Shown here piece after piece: positions 33,486 through 64,000 of a stretch of DNA of 64,000 nucleotides (the first letter of the stretch is position 1; every line of letters starts with the position of its first letter). The translations under genes were made by a program, and so were the position numbers. Source of the DNA: Succinivibrio dextrinosolvens (GTDB lineage: Bacteria > Pseudomonadota > Gammaproteobacteria > Enterobacterales > Succinivibrionaceae). The notes beneath the pieces were generated by a model. The model was given only the letters and a program-made list of their open reading frames with translations. It made no database searches and was not told where the DNA came from. The stretch spans positions 2,316,747-2,380,746 of the forward strand of contig NZ_CP047056.1 in assembly GCF_011065405.1 (NCBI RefSeq), written 5' to 3'.

Positions 33486-35183
33486 CTACATCTTATGTCC
33501 CATTTCATAGGCATTGTCGTGAACATCAGTTACGGTTCTGCCTGATGGATCGTTCATCTGAGCAAATTTAGCATCCCAGGCTATAGCGGTCTCGGTAGAG
33601 CAGGCAACTGACTTGCCGTATGGAACAGTCTTAACTGCGGATGGAAGCTTGAACAGATCTTCAAAAATCTCTCTGTACAGGTAGGCTTCCTTGGTAACAG
33701 GAGTATTTACAGGGAAGCGGATCTCACGCTCTGCAAATTTTCTGTCGGATACACTCTTCTCTGCATAATCTCTCAGAGCATCGATCCAGGAGTAGCCAAC
33801 TCCGTCAGAGAATTGCTCCTTCTGTCTCCACAGCACCTCTTCAGGCAGCATACCGTCAAATGCCTCACGCAGAACCTTTTTCTCAATGGTACTGCCCTGA
33901 CACATCTTGGCGCTTGGCTTGAAGTTCATGGCAATGTCCAGGAATTTCTTGTCCAGAAATGGCACACGACCTTCAACGCCCCAGGCCATCAGTGACTTGT
34001 TGGCACGCAGACAGTCATACAGATGCAGCTGATCAAGCTTTCTGATAAGTTCCTCATGCATTTCCCTGTCGTTAGGGGCTTTGTGGAAGTACAGATAACC
34101 ACCGAAGATCTCATCTGATCCTTCTCCTGACAGCACCATCTTGATGCCCATGGCCTTGATATAGCGGGCCATCAGATACATAGGAGTAGAGGCTCTGATG
34201 GTGGTTACATCATAGGTCTCAATGTGGTAGATAACATCACGAAGAGCATCCAGACCTTCCTGAATGGTGTAGTGAATCTCATGATGAACTGTACCCAGAT
34301 AGTCAGCAACCACACGGGCCTTCTTCAGATCAGGTGCACCTTCAAGACCGATGGCAAAGGAGTGCAGACGAGGGAACCAGGCATCAGTCTTTCCGTCATC
34401 TTCAACACGTTTCTGTGAGTAATACTTGGCGATGGCAGAGATTACTGATGAATCCAGACCTCCTGAGAGCAGTACACCGTATGGAACGTCACACATCAGC
34501 TGGCGACGTACTGCATCCATCAGACCATCCTTGAGAACCTTAACATCATCGGTTGCGTCTTTTACGTTCTCATACTCTGTCCAGTCTCTGAAGTAGTACT
34601 GCTTAAATTCGTAGTCACCACCCTTGGTGTAAAGATAGTGTCTTGGAGGGAATTCCTTAACAGAATCACAGACTTTTACCAGAGCCTTCATCTCGGAGGC
34701 AACATAGAAACGGCCCTCACGGTCAGTACCGACGTACATTGGGTTGATACCCATATGATCGCGGGCTGCAAAAATGGTGTTATCTTCCTCATCGTAGATA
34801 ACAAAGGCAAAATCTCCAACCAGTCTGTCTACAAAATTTTTGCCGGTACGCTTGAACTCCTCGTATAAAGGCAGAATAACCTCACAGTCTGAGCCGGTCT
34901 TGAACTTATAGTCTACAGTCAGCTCTGTCTTTAACTGCTTGTGATTGTAGATTTCTCCGTTTACAGCCAGGATATGCTTGCGGTTTTCATTATATAAAGG
35001 CTGTGCTCCGTTCTGAGGATCAACGATGGATAGACGCTCATGAACAACGATGGCGTGTTCTCCCTGATAAATACCTTCCCAGTCAGGGCCTCTATGAAGC
35101 TGAAGTCTTGAATTTTCAAGAGCAGTCTGCCGCAGTGACTCTGAGTTTTCCTTAATATCAAATATTCCAAATATAGAACACAT
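33486..35183 (-). CDS. asnB: Asparagine synthetase B (glutamine-hydrolysing)
   Basis: ATP-dependent synthesis of asparagine from aspartate with glutamine as nitrogen donor, cytosolic. Cys2 of MCSIFGI is the N-terminal nucleophile of the glutaminase domain. The synthetase half has the ATP pyrophosphatase loop SGGLDSSVISA. The length of 565 is usual for AsnB. It has its own terminator and is divergent from dapF-dapL; the 364-base interval between the genes contains a palindrome matching the enteric NtrC consensus. Confidence 0.95.
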   Translation of the reverse strand: MCSIFGIFDIKENSESLRQTALENSRLQLHRGPDWEGIYQGEHAIVVHERLSIVDPQNGAQPLYNENRKHILAVNGEIYNHKQLKTELTVDYKFKTGSDCEVILPLYEEFKRTGKNFVDRLVGDFAFVIYDEEDNTIFAARDHMGINPMYVGTDREGRFYVASEMKALVKVCDSVKEFPPRHYLYTKGGDYEFKQYYFRDWTEYENVKDATDDVKVLKDGLMDAVRRQLMCDVPYGVLLSGGLDSSVISAIAKYYSQKRVEDDGKTDAWFPRLHSFAIGLEGAPDLKKARVVADYLGTVHHEIHYTIQEGLDALRDVIYHIETYDVTTIRASTPMYLMARYIKAMGIKMVLSGEGSDEIFGGYLYFHKAPNDREMHEELIRKLDQLHLYDCLRANKSLMAWGVEGRVPFLDKKFLDIAMNFKPSAKMCQGSTIEKKVLREAFDGMLPEEVLWRQKEQFSDGVGYSWIDALRDYAEKSVSDRKFAEREIRFPVNTPVTKEAYLYREIFEDLFKLPSAVKTVPYGKSVACSTETAIAWDAKFAQMNDPSGRTVTDVHDNAYEMGHKM

Positions 35184-35547: not shown

Positions 35548-36423
35548 ATGAAATTCACAAAAATGCAGGGCTGCGGTAATGACTATGTTTACATGGATAC
35601 CTTCAGTGAGGAAGTTAAAGACCGCAGTGCAATGGCAAAGTTACTATCAAACAGAAATTTTGGAATAGGTTCAGACGGACTTATCTTTATCAACCCTTCA
35701 GATAAAGCCGATTTTGAAATGGAAATGTACAACCTTGACGGATCAAGGGCACAGATGTGCGGAAACGGTATCCGCTGTGTGGGCAGATATGTATACGAAC
35801 ATGGTCTTACAGATAAGACAGACTTCACCGTTGATACTCTGGCGGGACTAAAACATCTGCATCTGAATTTAAAGAACGGAGAGGTTTCTCTGGTTAGTGT
35901 GGATATGGGAGGGGCTACCATTATTCCTGATGAGATACCTGTAAAACCAGATGAATTTGACGATTACAGGAATGGTGTCGGATCTTCGATTGAGGTTTTA
36001 GGAGAGAAATACAGCGTTACCCCTGTCAGCATGGGAAATCCTCACAGTGTCTGTTTTATTGCAGAGGATGTTGAGTCATTTGATCTTATGAGAATCGGAC
36101 CAGCCTTTGAAAAACATCCTGCCTTCCCTGAAAAAGTAAATGCCGAATTTGTAAACATTAAGGACAGAACTCATATCAAGGTTCGGGTCTGGGAGAGAGG
36201 TTCAGGAGAAACCTGCGCCTGTGGAACCGGAGCTTGTGCCTGTGTGGTTGCAGGTGTCCTGAACGGTCTTCTTGATAAAGAGGTCTTTGTGGAAATGAAA
36301 GGCGGTGTACTCAAGGTAACCTGGGATGAGGTGGAGAACAAAGTTACTCTGTCAGGACCTGCTGTAACCGTATTTGAAGGTGAAACCAGAAATATTCAGA
36401 TACCATATCAATTTGCGGAGTAA
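35548..36423 (+). CDS. dapF: Diaminopimelate epimerase with intact active site
   Basis: PLP-independent epimerase converting LL- to meso-diaminopimelate for lysine and peptidoglycan. Both catalytic cysteines are present: Cys71 in MCGNGIRC and Cys225 in TCACGTGACAC. The substrate-binding Asn in KMQGCGNDY and ERGSGET are conserved. The 291-residue sequence resembles DapF of anaerobic Firmicutes and Bacteroidetes more than the Gammaproteobacterial form (judged by eye). It overlaps nearly directly with dapL, 2 nt downstream, which makes its direct substrate. A second, degenerate DapF is at 60959. Confidence 0.95.
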   Translation: MKFTKMQGCGNDYVYMDTFSEEVKDRSAMAKLLSNRNFGIGSDGLIFINPSDKADFEMEMYNLDGSRAQMCGNGIRCVGRYVYEHGLTDKTDFTVDTLAGLKHLHLNLKNGEVSLVSVDMGGATIIPDEIPVKPDEFDDYRNGVGSSIEVLGEKYSVTPVSMGNPHSVCFIAEDVESFDLMRIGPAFEKHPAFPEKVNAEFVNIKDRTHIKVRVWERGSGETCACGTGACACVVAGVLNGLLDKEVFVEMKGGVLKVTWDEVENKVTLSGPAVTVFEGETRNIQIPYQFAE

Positions 36424-36425
36424 AA

Positions 36426-37646
36426 ATGTTAAAAGTAAATCAGAATTATTTAAAACTGCCTGGCTCATATCTCTTTTCCGATATTGCAAAAAAAGTGAAG
36501 AAATACAGGGAAGAGCATCAGGGGCAGGAGGTTATTTCTCTTGGTATCGGAGATGTTACCAGACCGCTTACACCAACTATCATCAAAGCTTTACACGATG
36601 CTGTGGATGATATGTCTGATATTGAGCGTTTTCACGGATATGGCCCTGACTTAGGTTATGCTTTCCTGCGAGAGAAGATTGCTGAATTTGATTTTAAAAG
36701 ACGCGGCTGTGATATCAGTGCAGAAGAGATCTTTGTGTCAGACGGAGCCAAGAGTGATTCTGGAAATATTCAGGAAATCTTTTCTGACAAATGTACTATT
36801 GCGGTAAGTGATCCTGTATATCCAGTGTATGTTGATTCAAATGTTATGGCAGGCAGAACCGGTACATATGATGCTCCAAGCTCCAGATGGTCAGATGTAG
36901 TCTATATGCCTTGCACCAAGGACAACGACTTTGTTCCAGACCTTCCATCTAAAACACCGGATATTATCTATATCTGCTCTCCAAATAATCCTACCGGCAA
37001 GGCTTTAACCAAAGCTCAGCTTCAGTCCTTTGTGGATTATGCTCTTAAAAACAGGGCGGTAATACTCTTTGATGCAGCCTATGAAGCCTACATCATCGAG
37101 GATGATGTTCCTCATTCAATCTATGAGTGTGAAGGCGCAAAAGACTGTGCCATAGAAATGCGATCATTCAGTAAGAATGCCGGTTTTACAGGTGTTCGTC
37201 TTGGTTATACCGTTGTTCCTAAGAATCTTGTAGATACTGAAGGCAAGTCACTGTACTCATTATGGGCCCGCCGTCATGGAACCAAGTTTAATGGAGCATC
37301 CTATATTCAGCAGAGAGCCGGCGAGGCTGTCTATACAGAAGCTGGTCAGAATGAAATCGCAGGGCTGGTATCCTACTATATGGAAAATGCCGGAACCATT
37401 CGTGATGGTCTAACTTCAGCCGGCTTTACCGTATACGGAGGTGTAAATGCACCCTACATCTGGGTAAAGACTCCTGAGACTATGACAAGCTGGCAGTTCT
37501 TTGATTATCTTTTAAACAATGCTCAGGTGGTTGGAACTCCTGGCAGCGGCTTTGGTCCAAGCGGAGAAGGCTATTTCAGACTGACAGCCTTTGGTTCCCA
37601 TAAAAATACCAGAAATGCCGTAGAGCGTATAGTATCTCTTGCCTAA
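36426..37646 (+). CDS. dapL: LL-diaminopimelate aminotransferase
   Basis: PLP enzyme that makes LL-DAP in one step from tetrahydrodipicolinate and glutamate, bypassing the succinylase steps (DapD, DapC, DapE). The start NQNYLKLPGSYLFSDIAKK is diagnostic of DapL, and the PLP-lysine loop is RSFSKNAGFTGVRLGYT. The 406 residues match the family's usual length. The pathway is common in plants, Chlamydiae, Clostridia and Bacteroidetes and is unusual in Gammaproteobacteria. The tight dapF-dapL pair suggests one transcript and joint transfer. Confidence 0.95.
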   Translation: MLKVNQNYLKLPGSYLFSDIAKKVKKYREEHQGQEVISLGIGDVTRPLTPTIIKALHDAVDDMSDIERFHGYGPDLGYAFLREKIAEFDFKRRGCDISAEEIFVSDGAKSDSGNIQEIFSDKCTIAVSDPVYPVYVDSNVMAGRTGTYDAPSSRWSDVVYMPCTKDNDFVPDLPSKTPDIIYICSPNNPTGKALTKAQLQSFVDYALKNRAVILFDAAYEAYIIEDDVPHSIYECEGAKDCAIEMRSFSKNAGFTGVRLGYTVVPKNLVDTEGKSLYSLWARRHGTKFNGASYIQQRAGEAVYTEAGQNEIAGLVSYYMENAGTIRDGLTSAGFTVYGGVNAPYIWVKTPETMTSWQFFDYLLNNAQVVGTPGSGFGPSGEGYFRLTAFGSHKNTRNAVERIVSLA

Positions 37647-59442: not shown

Positions 59443-59634
59443 TTGAATAAATTTATTGCATTACTGTCTATAACTGTTGCAACACTTTTTCTGTATGGCT
59501 GCGGAATTAAAGGCCCTCTTTATATAGAAAAAGATCCTCAGACTCAGACCCAAAAGGTGGATGATGAGCAGCAGCTTGGTACTCAAGAGAATAATCAGAC
59601 AAAAGTCTCTGATGGTCAGAGCGTGCTTTACTAG
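59443..59634 (+). CDS. lptM: LptM-type (YifL) small lipoprotein
   Basis: A 63-residue lipoprotein. The signal ends in lipobox FLYGC (Cys near residue 20), followed by GIKGPLYIEKD, the conserved LptM start. In E. coli the protein helps LptD form its disulfides and assemble the LPS translocon. The C-terminal part is Gln/Asn/Thr-rich and variable. The start is a TTG at 59443, with AGG upstream; the gene is 84 nt after cyaA and 65 nt before lysA, in the usual genomic order. Confidence 0.85.
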   Translation: MNKFIALLSITVATLFLYGCGIKGPLYIEKDPQTQTQKVDDEQQLGTQENNQTKVSDGQSVLY

Positions 59635-59699: not shown

Positions 59700-60947
59700 A
59701 TGGATTTCTTTGGCTTTAAAGATTCAGATTTGTATGCGGAATCTGTAAAGATTACCGATATTGCATCACAGTATGGAACCCCTCTCTACGTATATTCAAA
59801 GGCAACCCTCTCAAAACACATGGAGGCTTTTGAGTCTGCACTTAAGAGTCGGAAACATCTGGTCTGCTTTGCGGTAAAAGCCTGCTCAAATCTTGCTGTC
59901 CTTAATCTTATGGCAAAGCTCGGTGCCGGTTTTGATATTGTCTCAGAAGGTGAACTTCGTCGTGTAATCGCAGCAGGAGGTGATCCTTCAAAGGTAGTCT
60001 TCTCTGGTGTAGGCAAGAGTGAAAGTGAAATTGAGTTTGCGCTTTCGCAGAAGATAAACTGTCTGAATATTGAATCTCCTGAGGAGATTGATACCGTTAT
60101 AAAGGTTGCCAGAAGACTAAATGTTGTGGCTCCGGTAGCTCTGAGAGTTAATCCTGGTGTCGATGCCAAGACTCATCCTTCAATTTCCACCGGTCTTAAG
60201 AACAACAAGTTCGGTGTAAGTGAAGATCTGGCCTTTGATCTTTACAGAAAAATGTCGCTAGAGCCATGCCTGAAAGTTTCAGGTATCGACTGTCATATCG
60301 GTTCACAGATGACCTCTGTTGATCCTATAATTGAAGCTTCAGATAAACTTATTTCTCTATATAATAAGTTGGTGGCAGCAGGAATAAAGGTTGATCACAT
60401 TGATATCGGCGGTGGACTTGGGGTTATCTATGATAATGAGACTCCTCCAAGCCCTGAGGAGTATCTGACTCCAATCTTAAAGAAGCTGGAAGGTCTGGAT
60501 GTAGCTCTGTACATCGAGCCTGGACGTGCCATGGTTGCCAATGCAGCAGTGCTTTTAGCCAAGGTTTTATACCAGAAGGATAATGGCGATAAGCATTTTG
60601 TGATAACAGATACTGCAATGAATGATATGATACGTCCTGCACTTTATGGCGCTAAAATGACTATCGTAAATGCAACCAGGCATTCAGATACAGCTGCTGT
60701 AAAGTCAGATATTGTAGGCCCTATCTGTGAAAGTGACGATTTTTTAGGTAAGGATCGTTCACTTTGTGTAAAGAATGGAGATATCCTGGTTGTAAGAGGT
60801 GCCGGAGCCTACGGCTCCTCAATGGCCTCAACCTATAATACCCGCCGTCTGTGCGCAGAGGTGATGGTTGATGGCGATAAGACTGTTCTAATCAAGAAGA
60901 GACAGGCTTTCGAGGATATCTGGAAGGATGAAATTATTCCGGAATAA
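59700..60947 (+). CDS. lysA: Diaminopimelate decarboxylase
   Basis: PLP enzyme, 415 residues, that decarboxylates meso-DAP to lysine in the cytosol. The PLP lysine is in VCFAVKACSNLA (near residue 58), the phosphate-binding glycines in HIDIGGGLGVIY and the conserved CHIGSQ in GIDCHIGSQ. The second active-site cysteine appears in ICESDDF. It is followed 11 nt later by a dapF homologue, as in many Gammaproteobacteria, but that DapF lacks its catalytic cysteines. Confidence 0.96.
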   Translation: MDFFGFKDSDLYAESVKITDIASQYGTPLYVYSKATLSKHMEAFESALKSRKHLVCFAVKACSNLAVLNLMAKLGAGFDIVSEGELRRVIAAGGDPSKVVFSGVGKSESEIEFALSQKINCLNIESPEEIDTVIKVARRLNVVAPVALRVNPGVDAKTHPSISTGLKNNKFGVSEDLAFDLYRKMSLEPCLKVSGIDCHIGSQMTSVDPIIEASDKLISLYNKLVAAGIKVDHIDIGGGLGVIYDNETPPSPEEYLTPILKKLEGLDVALYIEPGRAMVANAAVLLAKVLYQKDNGDKHFVITDTAMNDMIRPALYGAKMTIVNATRHSDTAAVKSDIVGPICESDDFLGKDRSLCVKNGDILVVRGAGAYGSSMASTYNTRRLCAEVMVDGDKTVLIKKRQAFEDIWKDEIIPE

Positions 60948-60958
60948 AAAGGATTAGC

Positions 60959-61795
60959 ATGATTTTTAAATTTTCCAAAATGCAGTGCTGCGGCAACGAT
61001 TTTATGTTTGTTGACGCCATTACTCAGAAAGCGTTTTTCTCTCCTGAACTTATCAGAAAGCTTGCTGACAGACATTTTGGAATTGGTTTTGATCAGCTGA
61101 TTCTGGTAGAACCTCCTTTTGATCCTGAGGTGGATTTCCATTTCAGGATTTTCAACTCCGACGGTACCGAAGTTCAGATAGGAGCTAATGCTGCTGCCTG
61201 TTTTATTCATTTTGTCATCGAACACAAGCTTACTGCCAAAAATGAGCTTCTGGTAAGTTCAGCCTCAAGACTTCTTGAAGTCAAGCTTAACGAGGATGGT
61301 TCTGTACGCGTGAATGTCGGTGCTCCTTCCTTTGCACCTGAGGATATTCCATATGCTTCACTGCATACCTCTGATACTTATCCTTTCAGGTTCAAGGATG
61401 GAGAGGAACTGTCTCACAGTGTTGTTTCCATGGGTAATCCTCACGCTGTTTTCTTTGTGGATGATCTGAAAAAGATTCCTCTTGAGAAGTATGGTAAAGA
61501 GGTTGAATCTGACGAGAAATTCCCTGAAAAGGTGAATGTAAGCTTTGTAAAGGTCGAATCAGAGCATGAAATAACCCTCAAGCTCTTTGAGCGTGGCTGT
61601 GGAGTTACTCTGGCAAACGGTACCTGTGCCTGTGCATCCTGTGTCTGCGGAATTGTTTCTGGAAAGCTTTCTTCCCCAGTAAAAGTAAATATGCCTGGCG
61701 GTACTGCTCAGATCGAGTGGAAAGGAGGGAGAGAGCCTGTGTTTATGACTGTATCAGAGATATCCCGTGTGTACGATGGTACTTTCAGTGTCTAA
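60959..61795 (+). CDS. dapF: Degenerate DapF paralogue lacking both catalytic cysteines
   Basis: A 278-residue full-length homologue of Gammaproteobacterial DapF; LIRKLADRHFGIGFDQL and VEPPFDPEVDF match E. coli DapF nearly word for word. In the QCGNGARC motif the catalytic cysteine is Gly (VQIGANAAAC, Gly75), and in the TQACGSGACA motif the second is Asn (VTLANGTCACA, Asn220). The binding positions Asn in CCGNDF, Asn in RIFNSDG, VVSMGNPH, FPEKVNV and ERG are kept. It cannot epimerise by the known two-cysteine mechanism. It may be a DAP-binding regulator or a partner of the other DapF. Part of the lysA transcript. Confidence 0.9.
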   Translation: MIFKFSKMQCCGNDFMFVDAITQKAFFSPELIRKLADRHFGIGFDQLILVEPPFDPEVDFHFRIFNSDGTEVQIGANAAACFIHFVIEHKLTAKNELLVSSASRLLEVKLNEDGSVRVNVGAPSFAPEDIPYASLHTSDTYPFRFKDGEELSHSVVSMGNPHAVFFVDDLKKIPLEKYGKEVESDEKFPEKVNVSFVKVESEHEITLKLFERGCGVTLANGTCACASCVCGIVSGKLSSPVKVNMPGGTAQIEWKGGREPVFMTVSEISRVYDGTFSV

Positions 61796-62173: not shown

Positions 62174-64000
62174 ATGTTTTTATCTCATAAGAAAAATAGT
62201 AATGGCTTTTATTACCTTTACCTGATGGAAGGAAAATATAATCCTGAACTTAAAAGAACCACTACATATGTGGTTAAAAGTTTCGGCAGAGTTGACGAGT
62301 TTAAAAGAATAACCCCGAGGAATATGCAAGTCTGGTAGAGAAATACGGAGATAAAAGACTCGTTCCAAAGCAGAGCAGGAACACACTATCCAGCAGTTTA
62401 TTACTGCGGGACAAAAGGCAGAAGAACAGCTGAATTTCTTTTCAAAAGTTAAGGCGCTGATGCCTCAGCGAATTGCCCATCTTGCCTTACGCAGACTCTG
62501 GAATGACGAACTGCAGATGTCAAAGTTCTTTGAATATATGACTCGCCACAACAGCGTTGATATTCAATACAACATTTCAGAGATAGCTTTGTATTTCTCC
62601 ATGCTGAAACTGGTACAACCATCCTCTTATCTTGAAGGTTTGGAGCTAAGCCCAAGATTCCTGGGTGATCCGATGTCAGAGTACACTTCTGATGATGTTT
62701 ACCGCAGTCTTCATGTGCTGGCAGAGTACAAAGACATGATTATGAAGCACGTAAACAAAAGAGTTGATGAGATGGTTCCAAGAGAGAAGTCTCTTATATT
62801 CTTTGACTGCACCAACTGTTATTTTGAAACTGCCTACAATGATGTCTACTGGTACACAAAGAAGGCTCTGAGACTGCTACGAAGAGAGCTTAGACATGAA
62901 GATAAAACATTAAAACAGCTCTCGGATAAAGAGCTTAACCAAATCATAGCCGATTCTCCTGTATATACACAGATGCTCGAAACTATCTATGAATCCCTGG
63001 GGGAGCCTCTGAGGATGCACGGCCCAAGTAAAGAAAAACGTTTCGACCTGCCATTGGTATCAATTGCTCTGGTGGTTGATGAACATGCTATTCCAATTGA
63101 CTTCAAAGTTTTTTCCGGAAATAAAGCTGAAACCTCAACCATGAAAGAGGTGGTTGGAGAACTGAAAAAGAAGCATCAGATACGCAATGCTGTTCTGGTT
63201 GCAGACAGCGCTCTGAACGGTACAAAGAATCTGTGCATGCTGCTTGAGGAAGGCTTAGGATTTTCTGTTGCTAAATCCTCATTGTCTTTTACAGAAAAAG
63301 TCAGAGAAAACGAGCTGAACCTCAATGACTTTGAAACCATTAAGGATGAAGCAGGTAACGATACCGGAATGCAGTATAAGATTGTGGATTTCCACAATGT
63401 AAGGTATGACCGTTCTGAACTGACTGAGGATGGAAAAAGTACAAAATACACCATCGACTGCAAGATGATGATTACGTTCAGCAAAACAAGATATGAAAGA
63501 GATATCGCAGTACTTGAAGAGAATATAAAAAGAGCTCAGCAGGCAATAGATACACAGGAGGCTATTGACATCAGTTCCAACGGCTGGAAGCAGTTAATTA
63601 TCCTGGAAAAGATGCAAGCAAGGAAGAAGAGTCCATCTCTGATGGAGACAAGACTTCAGAAAGCAAGAAAACCAAGAAAAAAGAGAGAACACAATTCGCT
63701 GTTTCACTGGACAGGAATGCTATTGAGAAACGGAGAAAATGTGCTGGCTTTGCCGGAATTCTATTCCATGAACCTCCTGAGGGTAAAGAACAGTTCACTC
63801 CCGCATATGTAAGTACTCTCTACCATCAGCTGGTGCAGATTGAGGACTGTTTCAGAGTAATGAAGAATGACTTTGAGATCAGACCTATGTACGTTAGGGA
63901 CAATCAGAGCATCAATGGGCACGTGCTGCTGTGCATTCTATCCCTGATTATGGCGAGAATCATCCAGAGAAAGTTTGCTCAAGAAGGTTACAGTGTAACT
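62174..64000 (+). pseudogene. IS1634-family transposase, frameshifted and cut by the window edge
   Basis: The coding sequence starts at the ATG 62174 (MFLSHKKNSNGFYYLYLM) and is shifted near 62315, again near 62370, and once more between about 63560 and 63610; the frame then continues to the window end. In between lie IIFFDCTNCYFETAY-like and VLVADSALNGTKN-type segments with the DDE aspartates, which define the IS1634 (IS4-superfamily) group. With three frameshifts the protein cannot be made unless programmed shifting occurs, which I consider unlikely. Confidence 0.8.

Follow-up and report, generated by a model that had tools for sequence, protein, structure and literature searches.

A predicted DapF pseudoenzyme of Succinivibrio dextrinosolvens, probably kept as an activator of the RNA pyrophosphohydrolase RppH

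The closest described system is the DapF protein of E. coli, which is both a diaminopimelate (DAP) epimerase and an activator of the RNA pyrophosphohydrolase RppH (Lee 2014; PDB entries 6d13 and 6vck); the activation is independent of the catalytic cysteines C73 and C217 (PMC4227774, available part). The variant DapF(C73&217A) does not epimerise DAP, yet it binds RppH and stimulates it in vitro, and upon overproduction it led to rppH-dependent salt sensitivity in E. coli and to slightly faster decay of rpsT P1, osmY and slyB (PMC4227774, available part). Overproduced alone, the same variant left the decay of ydfG, yfcZ and yeiP unchanged, which counts against the RppH-based reading favoured below, but the decay of yeiP does respond to it when RppH is overproduced too; in the authors' view, DapF may serve mainly to stimulate RppH (PMC4227774, same part). 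Furthermore, an R36A/Y268A DapF forms no dimer and still binds and stimulates RppH (PMC7144940, available part). The catalysis-dead E. coli protein thus shows that a DapF can be of use without its chemistry, as an activator of RppH. Gao 2018 and Wang 2018 reportedly contain structures of the RppH-DapF complex.

Moonlighting of DapF on RppH is therefore known; in the literature searched, mostly outside subscription journals, we found neither a natural DapF without catalysis nor, by title or abstract, a described DapF pseudoenzyme, and the published text that pairs "diaminopimelate epimerase" with "pseudoenzyme" concerns, in its available part, another protein. PhzF and other proteins of the same fold are about 11-14% identical to the protein presented here and constitute separate families with their own catalysis, whereas our protein is an ordinary DapF by sequence; to our knowledge, PhzF has no DapF cysteine pair. 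The native DapF of S. dextrinosolvens differs from E. coli DapF in that its active site was lost in natural evolution, with another DapF available for metabolism.

The native DapF of the window and its active site

The window, i.e., the whole stretch of 64,000 nt that we analysed, is part of a single-contig genome (3,468,545 bases) and contains two genes of the DapF family (Table 1). The native dapF starts 11 bases after lysA and has an open frame with an ATG start and an AAGGA-type ribosome-binding site. The DapF profile TIGR00652 matches residues 4-275 of the protein with 246.3 bits (cut-off 114.65), and E. coli DapF aligns over its full length with 47-48% identity.

Table 1 Features of the window discussed in the text.
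Feature	Coordinates	Strand	Basis
DapF2, intact DapF	35548..36423	+	CGNG and ACGTG present; without EPPxDP element
DapL-type aminotransferase, directly after dapF2	36426..37646	+	ORF, distribution
Class I adenylate cyclase, presumably cyaA	56887..59358	+	ORF; match in 19/24 loci
Short lipoprotein, which we take to be lptM-like	59443..59634	+	ORF; match in 14/24 loci
lysA, DAP decarboxylase	59700..60947	+	TIGR01048, 498 bits
Native (ancestral) DapF, predicted pseudoenzyme, 278 aa	60959..61795	+	Open ORF, profile match, alignment
GxGFx6EPPxDPxxDF element (E. coli residues 39-58), which may belong to the surface that binds RppH	61079..61138	+	Conservation
Codon of Gly75, which aligns with catalytic Cys73	61181..61183	+	Sequence, alignment
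Codon of Asn220, which aligns with catalytic Cys217	61616..61618	+	Sequence, alignment
IS1634-family transposase ORF, 3' of native dapF	62460..63812	+	NF033559, 167 bits

The gene order is that of the ancestral locus. In all 24 loci for which flanks were fetched, lysA lies directly upstream of dapF, and cyaA follows further upstream in 19 of them, the other five stretches being too short to reach it; outside these 24 loci, native status was assigned from sequence. The relatives that we looked at carry a recombinase-like gene 3' of dapF, often close to it, which is presumably xerC given the gene order. Unlike in these relatives, no match to the xerC-like protein of genome G010 was detected in the next 7,959 bases of the window genome, and in genome G004 the xerC-like gene begins about 2.3 kb after dapF. 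The transposase downstream of the window dapF comprises two ORFs and runs past the window end. A search of plasmids returned 22 records, all of which fell short of 80% query coverage; the best 5 of the 22 were partial, with 67-75% identity.

According to the alignment, both catalytic cysteines of E. coli DapF are replaced in the window protein, C73 by Gly75 and C217 by Asn220. N11, Q44, N64, N75, N157, N190, E208 and R209 (E. coli numbering), which we take to be the DAP-contacting residues, are all retained. The preliminary description of this DNA had reported a full-length, open-frame DapF without its two cysteines at the ancestral lysA-dapF locus, with the Asn and Glu-Arg residues that hold DAP in place, and the comparison with E. 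coli DapF and the relatives bears this out. Its further statement that only the acid/base pair had been lost turned out to be too narrow. We defined a set of 65 positions that are at least 98% invariant among 57 functional native DapFs of genomes with RppH; 12 of these are changed in the window protein, including G74A, G76A, E213V and G220C, none of the 12 falling into residues 1-60, and R78, which is below the 98% cut, is replaced by Ala80. Remodelling of the active site has therefore gone further than the acid/base pair. The window protein shares locus, length and N-domain with the family's functional native DapFs (e.g., that of G002, 59% identical), which differ in keeping both catalytic cysteines and in occurring together with DapD.

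The window genome belongs to a clade of five genomes, in all of which the altered motifs GANAAAC and NGTCAC are found; the other four proteins are 84-97% identical to the window DapF, and S. dextrinosolvens ACV-10 and DSM 3072 are among their sources. Sequencing error as the source of the cysteine loss was rejected, as the motif is common to five genomes. All five proteins also share Cys10, Cys11, Cys81, Cys223 and Cys225, from which one could envisage a new catalytic or metal-binding activity in a remodelled, cysteine-rich pocket of this clade. We consider this improbable: the cysteine set is not common to the other displaced lineages, and two of its members, Cys81 and Cys225, correspond to C79 and C222, which are common in functional DapFs as well. 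The predicted structure, modelled from an 11-row alignment (pLDDT 86.1, pTM 0.86), has the ordinary two-domain DapF fold. Its best match in the PDB is 6d13_A, the DapF of the E. coli RppH-DapF complex (TM 0.88), and other DapF structures score nearly as high.

Loss of the catalytic cysteines coincides with the absence of DapD

We surveyed 56 genomes of one family that includes rumen species, the Succinivibrionaceae judging from the names of close relatives, and found DapF in 55, DapL in 15, DapD in 36, Ddh in 30 and RppH in 54 of them. The alignment comprised a single native DapF per genome for these 55, together with 9 of the 14 DapF2 proteins. The 36 genomes with DapD are exactly the 36 whose native DapF keeps both cysteines, and all 19 genomes that have a native DapF and no DapD have lost one or both. 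C73G and C217N are found in the five genomes of the window clade, and both cysteines are lost in G005, G034, G025, G035 and G017 as well. C73 is lost and the region of C217 missing in G016 and G031, C73G is the only change in G073, G074 and G028, and G022, G076, G077 and G078 have a Cys aligned at 73 and none at 217. DapL accompanies 15 of the 19 pseudo-DapFs. DapL was not found in G028, G031 and G035 (84% complete), which have Ddh, and neither DapL nor Ddh was found in G017 (59% complete). G008 (69% complete) yielded no match to DapF and none to DapD.

With genomes as units, Fisher's test of cysteine loss against absence of DapD gives 3.6e-15, a value to be read with the relatedness of these genomes in mind; the four supported independent pairs all agree (sign test p 0.125). 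In a tree built from the lysA of 40 genomes (15 of the 55, for which no lysA was fetched, were left out), the pseudo state changes seven times (6-8 in bootstraps), and at least four changes are forced by well-supported branches. Within the family, loss of the active site from the native DapF is thus a repeated event, coupled to the absence of DapD.

Two genomes with DapD deserve mention. In G070 the DapD gene is split over two contigs. In G001, which also has Ddh, the DapD match (C7:21064-21648) has an internal gap, and the native DapF (locus L012) keeps both cysteines but carries R209S and R78C; this genome perhaps represents an early stage of the same retirement of DapF.

In the window genome, DapD was not found and Ddh is present. 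The second DapF of the window, DapF2, is only 36% identical to the native protein and lacks its EPPxDP element; its catalytic motifs are intact, and it presumably supplies the epimerase. It adjoins a gene that, given its place, is presumably dapL, and the same neighbourhood is found in 14 of the 15 genomes with DapL, the exception (G003) being a dapL fragment at a contig start. As DapD is absent and the dapF2-dapL pair present, the pair can supply L,L-DAP as well as its epimerisation, and it was probably acquired by transfer. A DapE-family protein (TIGR01246, 415 bits; G000:C1:377707-378822) persists in this genome despite the absence of DapD. Between positions 33486 and 48114 of the window, dapF2 and dapL lie close together with genes that, judging from their translations, are presumably asnB-, glutamine synthetase- and gltB/gltD-like. 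A paper on strain Z6 groups asnB, gltBD and dapF in one list (PMC7507024, available part).

One alternative reading is a regulatory mixed dimer in which the pseudo-subunit pairs with active DapF2; a mixed dimer had been put forward in the preliminary description. E. coli DapF is a dimer, and R36 and Y268, at which the dimer can be disrupted (PMC7144940, available part), are kept in the window protein; R36 is even kept in all 19 pseudo-DapFs. However, G028 (97% complete) and G031 (95%) have a degraded native DapF, and no second DapF or DapL was found in either; G035 has the same pattern at 84% completeness. A mixed dimer can therefore not be the general reason for retention and, given also the low identity between the two proteins, we regard it as the least probable of the alternatives considered.

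Purifying selection and the retained N-terminal domain

Selection was assessed as omega (dN/dS) in a codon model, and the fit was compared by likelihood ratio with one at omega=1. For the DapF of the window clade, omega is 0.059, with 0.030 in the N-domain and 0.077 in the C-domain, and omega=1 is rejected (2dlnL 444). These values are in the range of those for DapF2 (0.054, four of the five genomes) and for cyaA and lysA (0.056 and 0.038, all five genomes). In a tree with the sister species, omega is 0.058 in the crown of the clade and 0.025 in the background, the stem being saturated, so that selection on the window-clade DapF appears somewhat relaxed. Two other pairs of pseudo-DapFs gave 0.073 and 0.086, again with lower values in the N-domain (0.031 and 0.046) than in the C-domain (0.086 and 0.125). 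Among functional DapFs, the set G019/G063/G066 showed no difference between the domains (0.064, 0.065), whereas omega was lower in the N-domain in G060/G065 and in G021/G069/G070, the N-domain fit of the latter being saturated; the contrast between the domains is thus not unique to pseudo-DapFs. We dropped the whole-gene fit of clade C, which was inconsistent with its two halves, and several saturated fits of functional comparators.

Pseudo-DapFs are hence under purifying selection in the sets tested. The decay of orthologues to random substitution, named in the preliminary description as the contrary outcome, was not seen in the window clade. With the catalytic residues lost and the protein under purifying selection, both well supported by the sequences compared, the window protein is very probably a DapF pseudoenzyme.

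We further explored which parts of the protein are kept by grouping the 19 pseudo-DapFs into 10 lineages of our own definition and counting a position as kept in a lineage when the residue occurs in half or more of its members. N11, Q44, N64, C73, N75, N157, N190, E208, R209 and C217 are each kept in at most four of the 10 lineages. All 10 have 18 kept positions in common, and 17 of these fall within residues 1-89. Among the 65 near-invariant positions, all 19 proteins retain the same 14 (F3, K5, D12, R36, G39, G41, F42, E49, P51, P54, D57, F58, G67 and L89), each of which belongs to the N-domain. They include an element, GxGFx6EPPxDPxxDF, that is present in 19/19 pseudo-DapFs and in none of the nine aligned DapF2 proteins; its strict form occurs in 18 of the 36 functional native DapFs of the family. 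Since DapF2 does without the element, neither the fold nor the chemistry of a DapF depends on it. The shortened DapFs of G016 (L115, 143 aa) and G031 (L121, 185 aa), both from draft assemblies, keep the N-domain and the C-terminal tail in frame, and most or all of the C-domain is missing. In C. glutamicum DapF, the N-terminal domain consists of residues 1-131 plus 268-277 (PMC5296763, available part), and by these limits the two proteins resemble products of domain deletion in which one folding unit is left. The N-domain is retained across the pseudo-DapFs.

This pattern bears on two further alternatives. The first is that the gene is a slowly decaying relic, or that its frame stays open just so that a downstream xerC can be translated. 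The recombinase-like gene of the relatives would fit such polarity, and the varying degree of active-site loss among lineages would fit decay, but an omega far below 1 and the same N-domain residues in 19 of 19 proteins speak against both, as does the place of xerC, distant in G004 and without a match in the stretch searched in the window genome; we therefore think this explanation unlikely, about as much so as a new activity in the pocket.

The second is a sensor or regulator for which L,L- or meso-DAP would be a ligand, not a substrate, and which would act on DapL, LysA or another target. The low omega of the window clade and the eight retained contact residues would agree with it, and to this extent the retained DAP binding proposed in the preliminary description stands for the window clade. 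In most of the other displaced lineages these contacts are lost while the N-domain stays, so DAP sensing is not the general reason for retention; moreover, little or nothing of the C-domain is left in G016 and G031, and the window protein itself no longer has G74, G76, R78 and E213. A sensor is thus rather improbable, although slightly less so than decay. A combined version, in which the S. dextrinosolvens protein would be a DAP-gated activator of RppH, is a little easier to entertain and still doubtful. L,L- or meso-DAP bound in the non-catalytic pocket would signal the supply of cell-wall and lysine precursors, DAP-driven domain closure would tune the removal of mRNA 5' ends, and the protein of other lineages would be on its way to a bare N-terminal domain that binds RppH.

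A candidate role at RppH

The reading that we prefer, with a probability of about three in four for the mechanism as a whole, is that the native DapF was retired as an epimerase after metabolic displacement and kept as an activator of RppH. The dissimilar dapF2-dapL pair, presumably transferred, would supply L,L-DAP and its epimerisation in genomes from which DapD is gone. Released from catalysis, the native DapF has repeatedly lost its active site within the family, and in the sets tested the protein has remained under purifying selection, omega being lowest in the N-domain. Its retained function would most likely be to bind and stimulate RppH, in analogy to the E. coli protein, through a predicted contact on the N-terminal surface that probably includes the EPPxDP loop, so that the pseudoenzyme may act as a dedicated activating subunit for 5'-end-dependent mRNA decay. 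As DapF2 lacks this loop, it may not replace the native DapF at RppH.

RppH is encoded in the window genome (G000:C1:2779305-2779757, 141.4 bits) and was found in 18 of the 19 genomes with a pseudo-DapF, the exception being G017. We also considered two genomes in which RppH was not found and both DapF cysteines are kept. One is G061 of the family, a draft of about 94% completeness, so that RppH could lie in a gap; only one short match of low significance (E 0.003) came up there when the search was repeated. The other is G058, a tiny diverged genome of 348,580 bases from the order level, in which the second search was negative as well. The DapF of G061 differs at only one of the 65 near-invariant positions, Pro54, and that of G058 at nine, Pro54 and eight others. 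Pro54 is kept in 57/57 functional DapFs of genomes with RppH and in 19/19 pseudo-DapFs. In a leave-one-out control, 40 of the 57 functional DapFs showed no deviation and 17 showed one to nine, none of them at Pro54. A motif relaxed post hoc, E.P..P..DF, is present in 56/57 functional DapFs of genomes with RppH (the 57th, from G001, has P51S with RppH present), in 19/19 pseudo-DapFs, in 0/2 DapFs of genomes without RppH and in 0/9 DapF2 proteins. Fisher's test of Pro54 against RppH gives 3.4e-4, a post hoc value that depends on two RppH-less genomes.

Any other partner of the N-domain would leave the same conservation pattern. Moreover, R36 is kept in all pseudo-DapFs, yet the R36A/Y268A protein serves RppH in E. 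coli, so part of the N-domain conservation has another cause, for instance fold or dimer.

Activation of RppH by the pseudo-DapF would amount to a repeated natural separation of the two jobs of a metabolic enzyme. The role of DapF in RNA decay is known from E. coli, and it would then be under selection elsewhere in the Gammaproteobacteria, too. The RppH reading also predicts which surface of DapF matters, namely the EPPxDP loop with Pro54. Automatic annotation labels the window protein as an epimerase: its score is about 132 bits above the NCBI equivalog cut-off, although neither catalytic residue is present.
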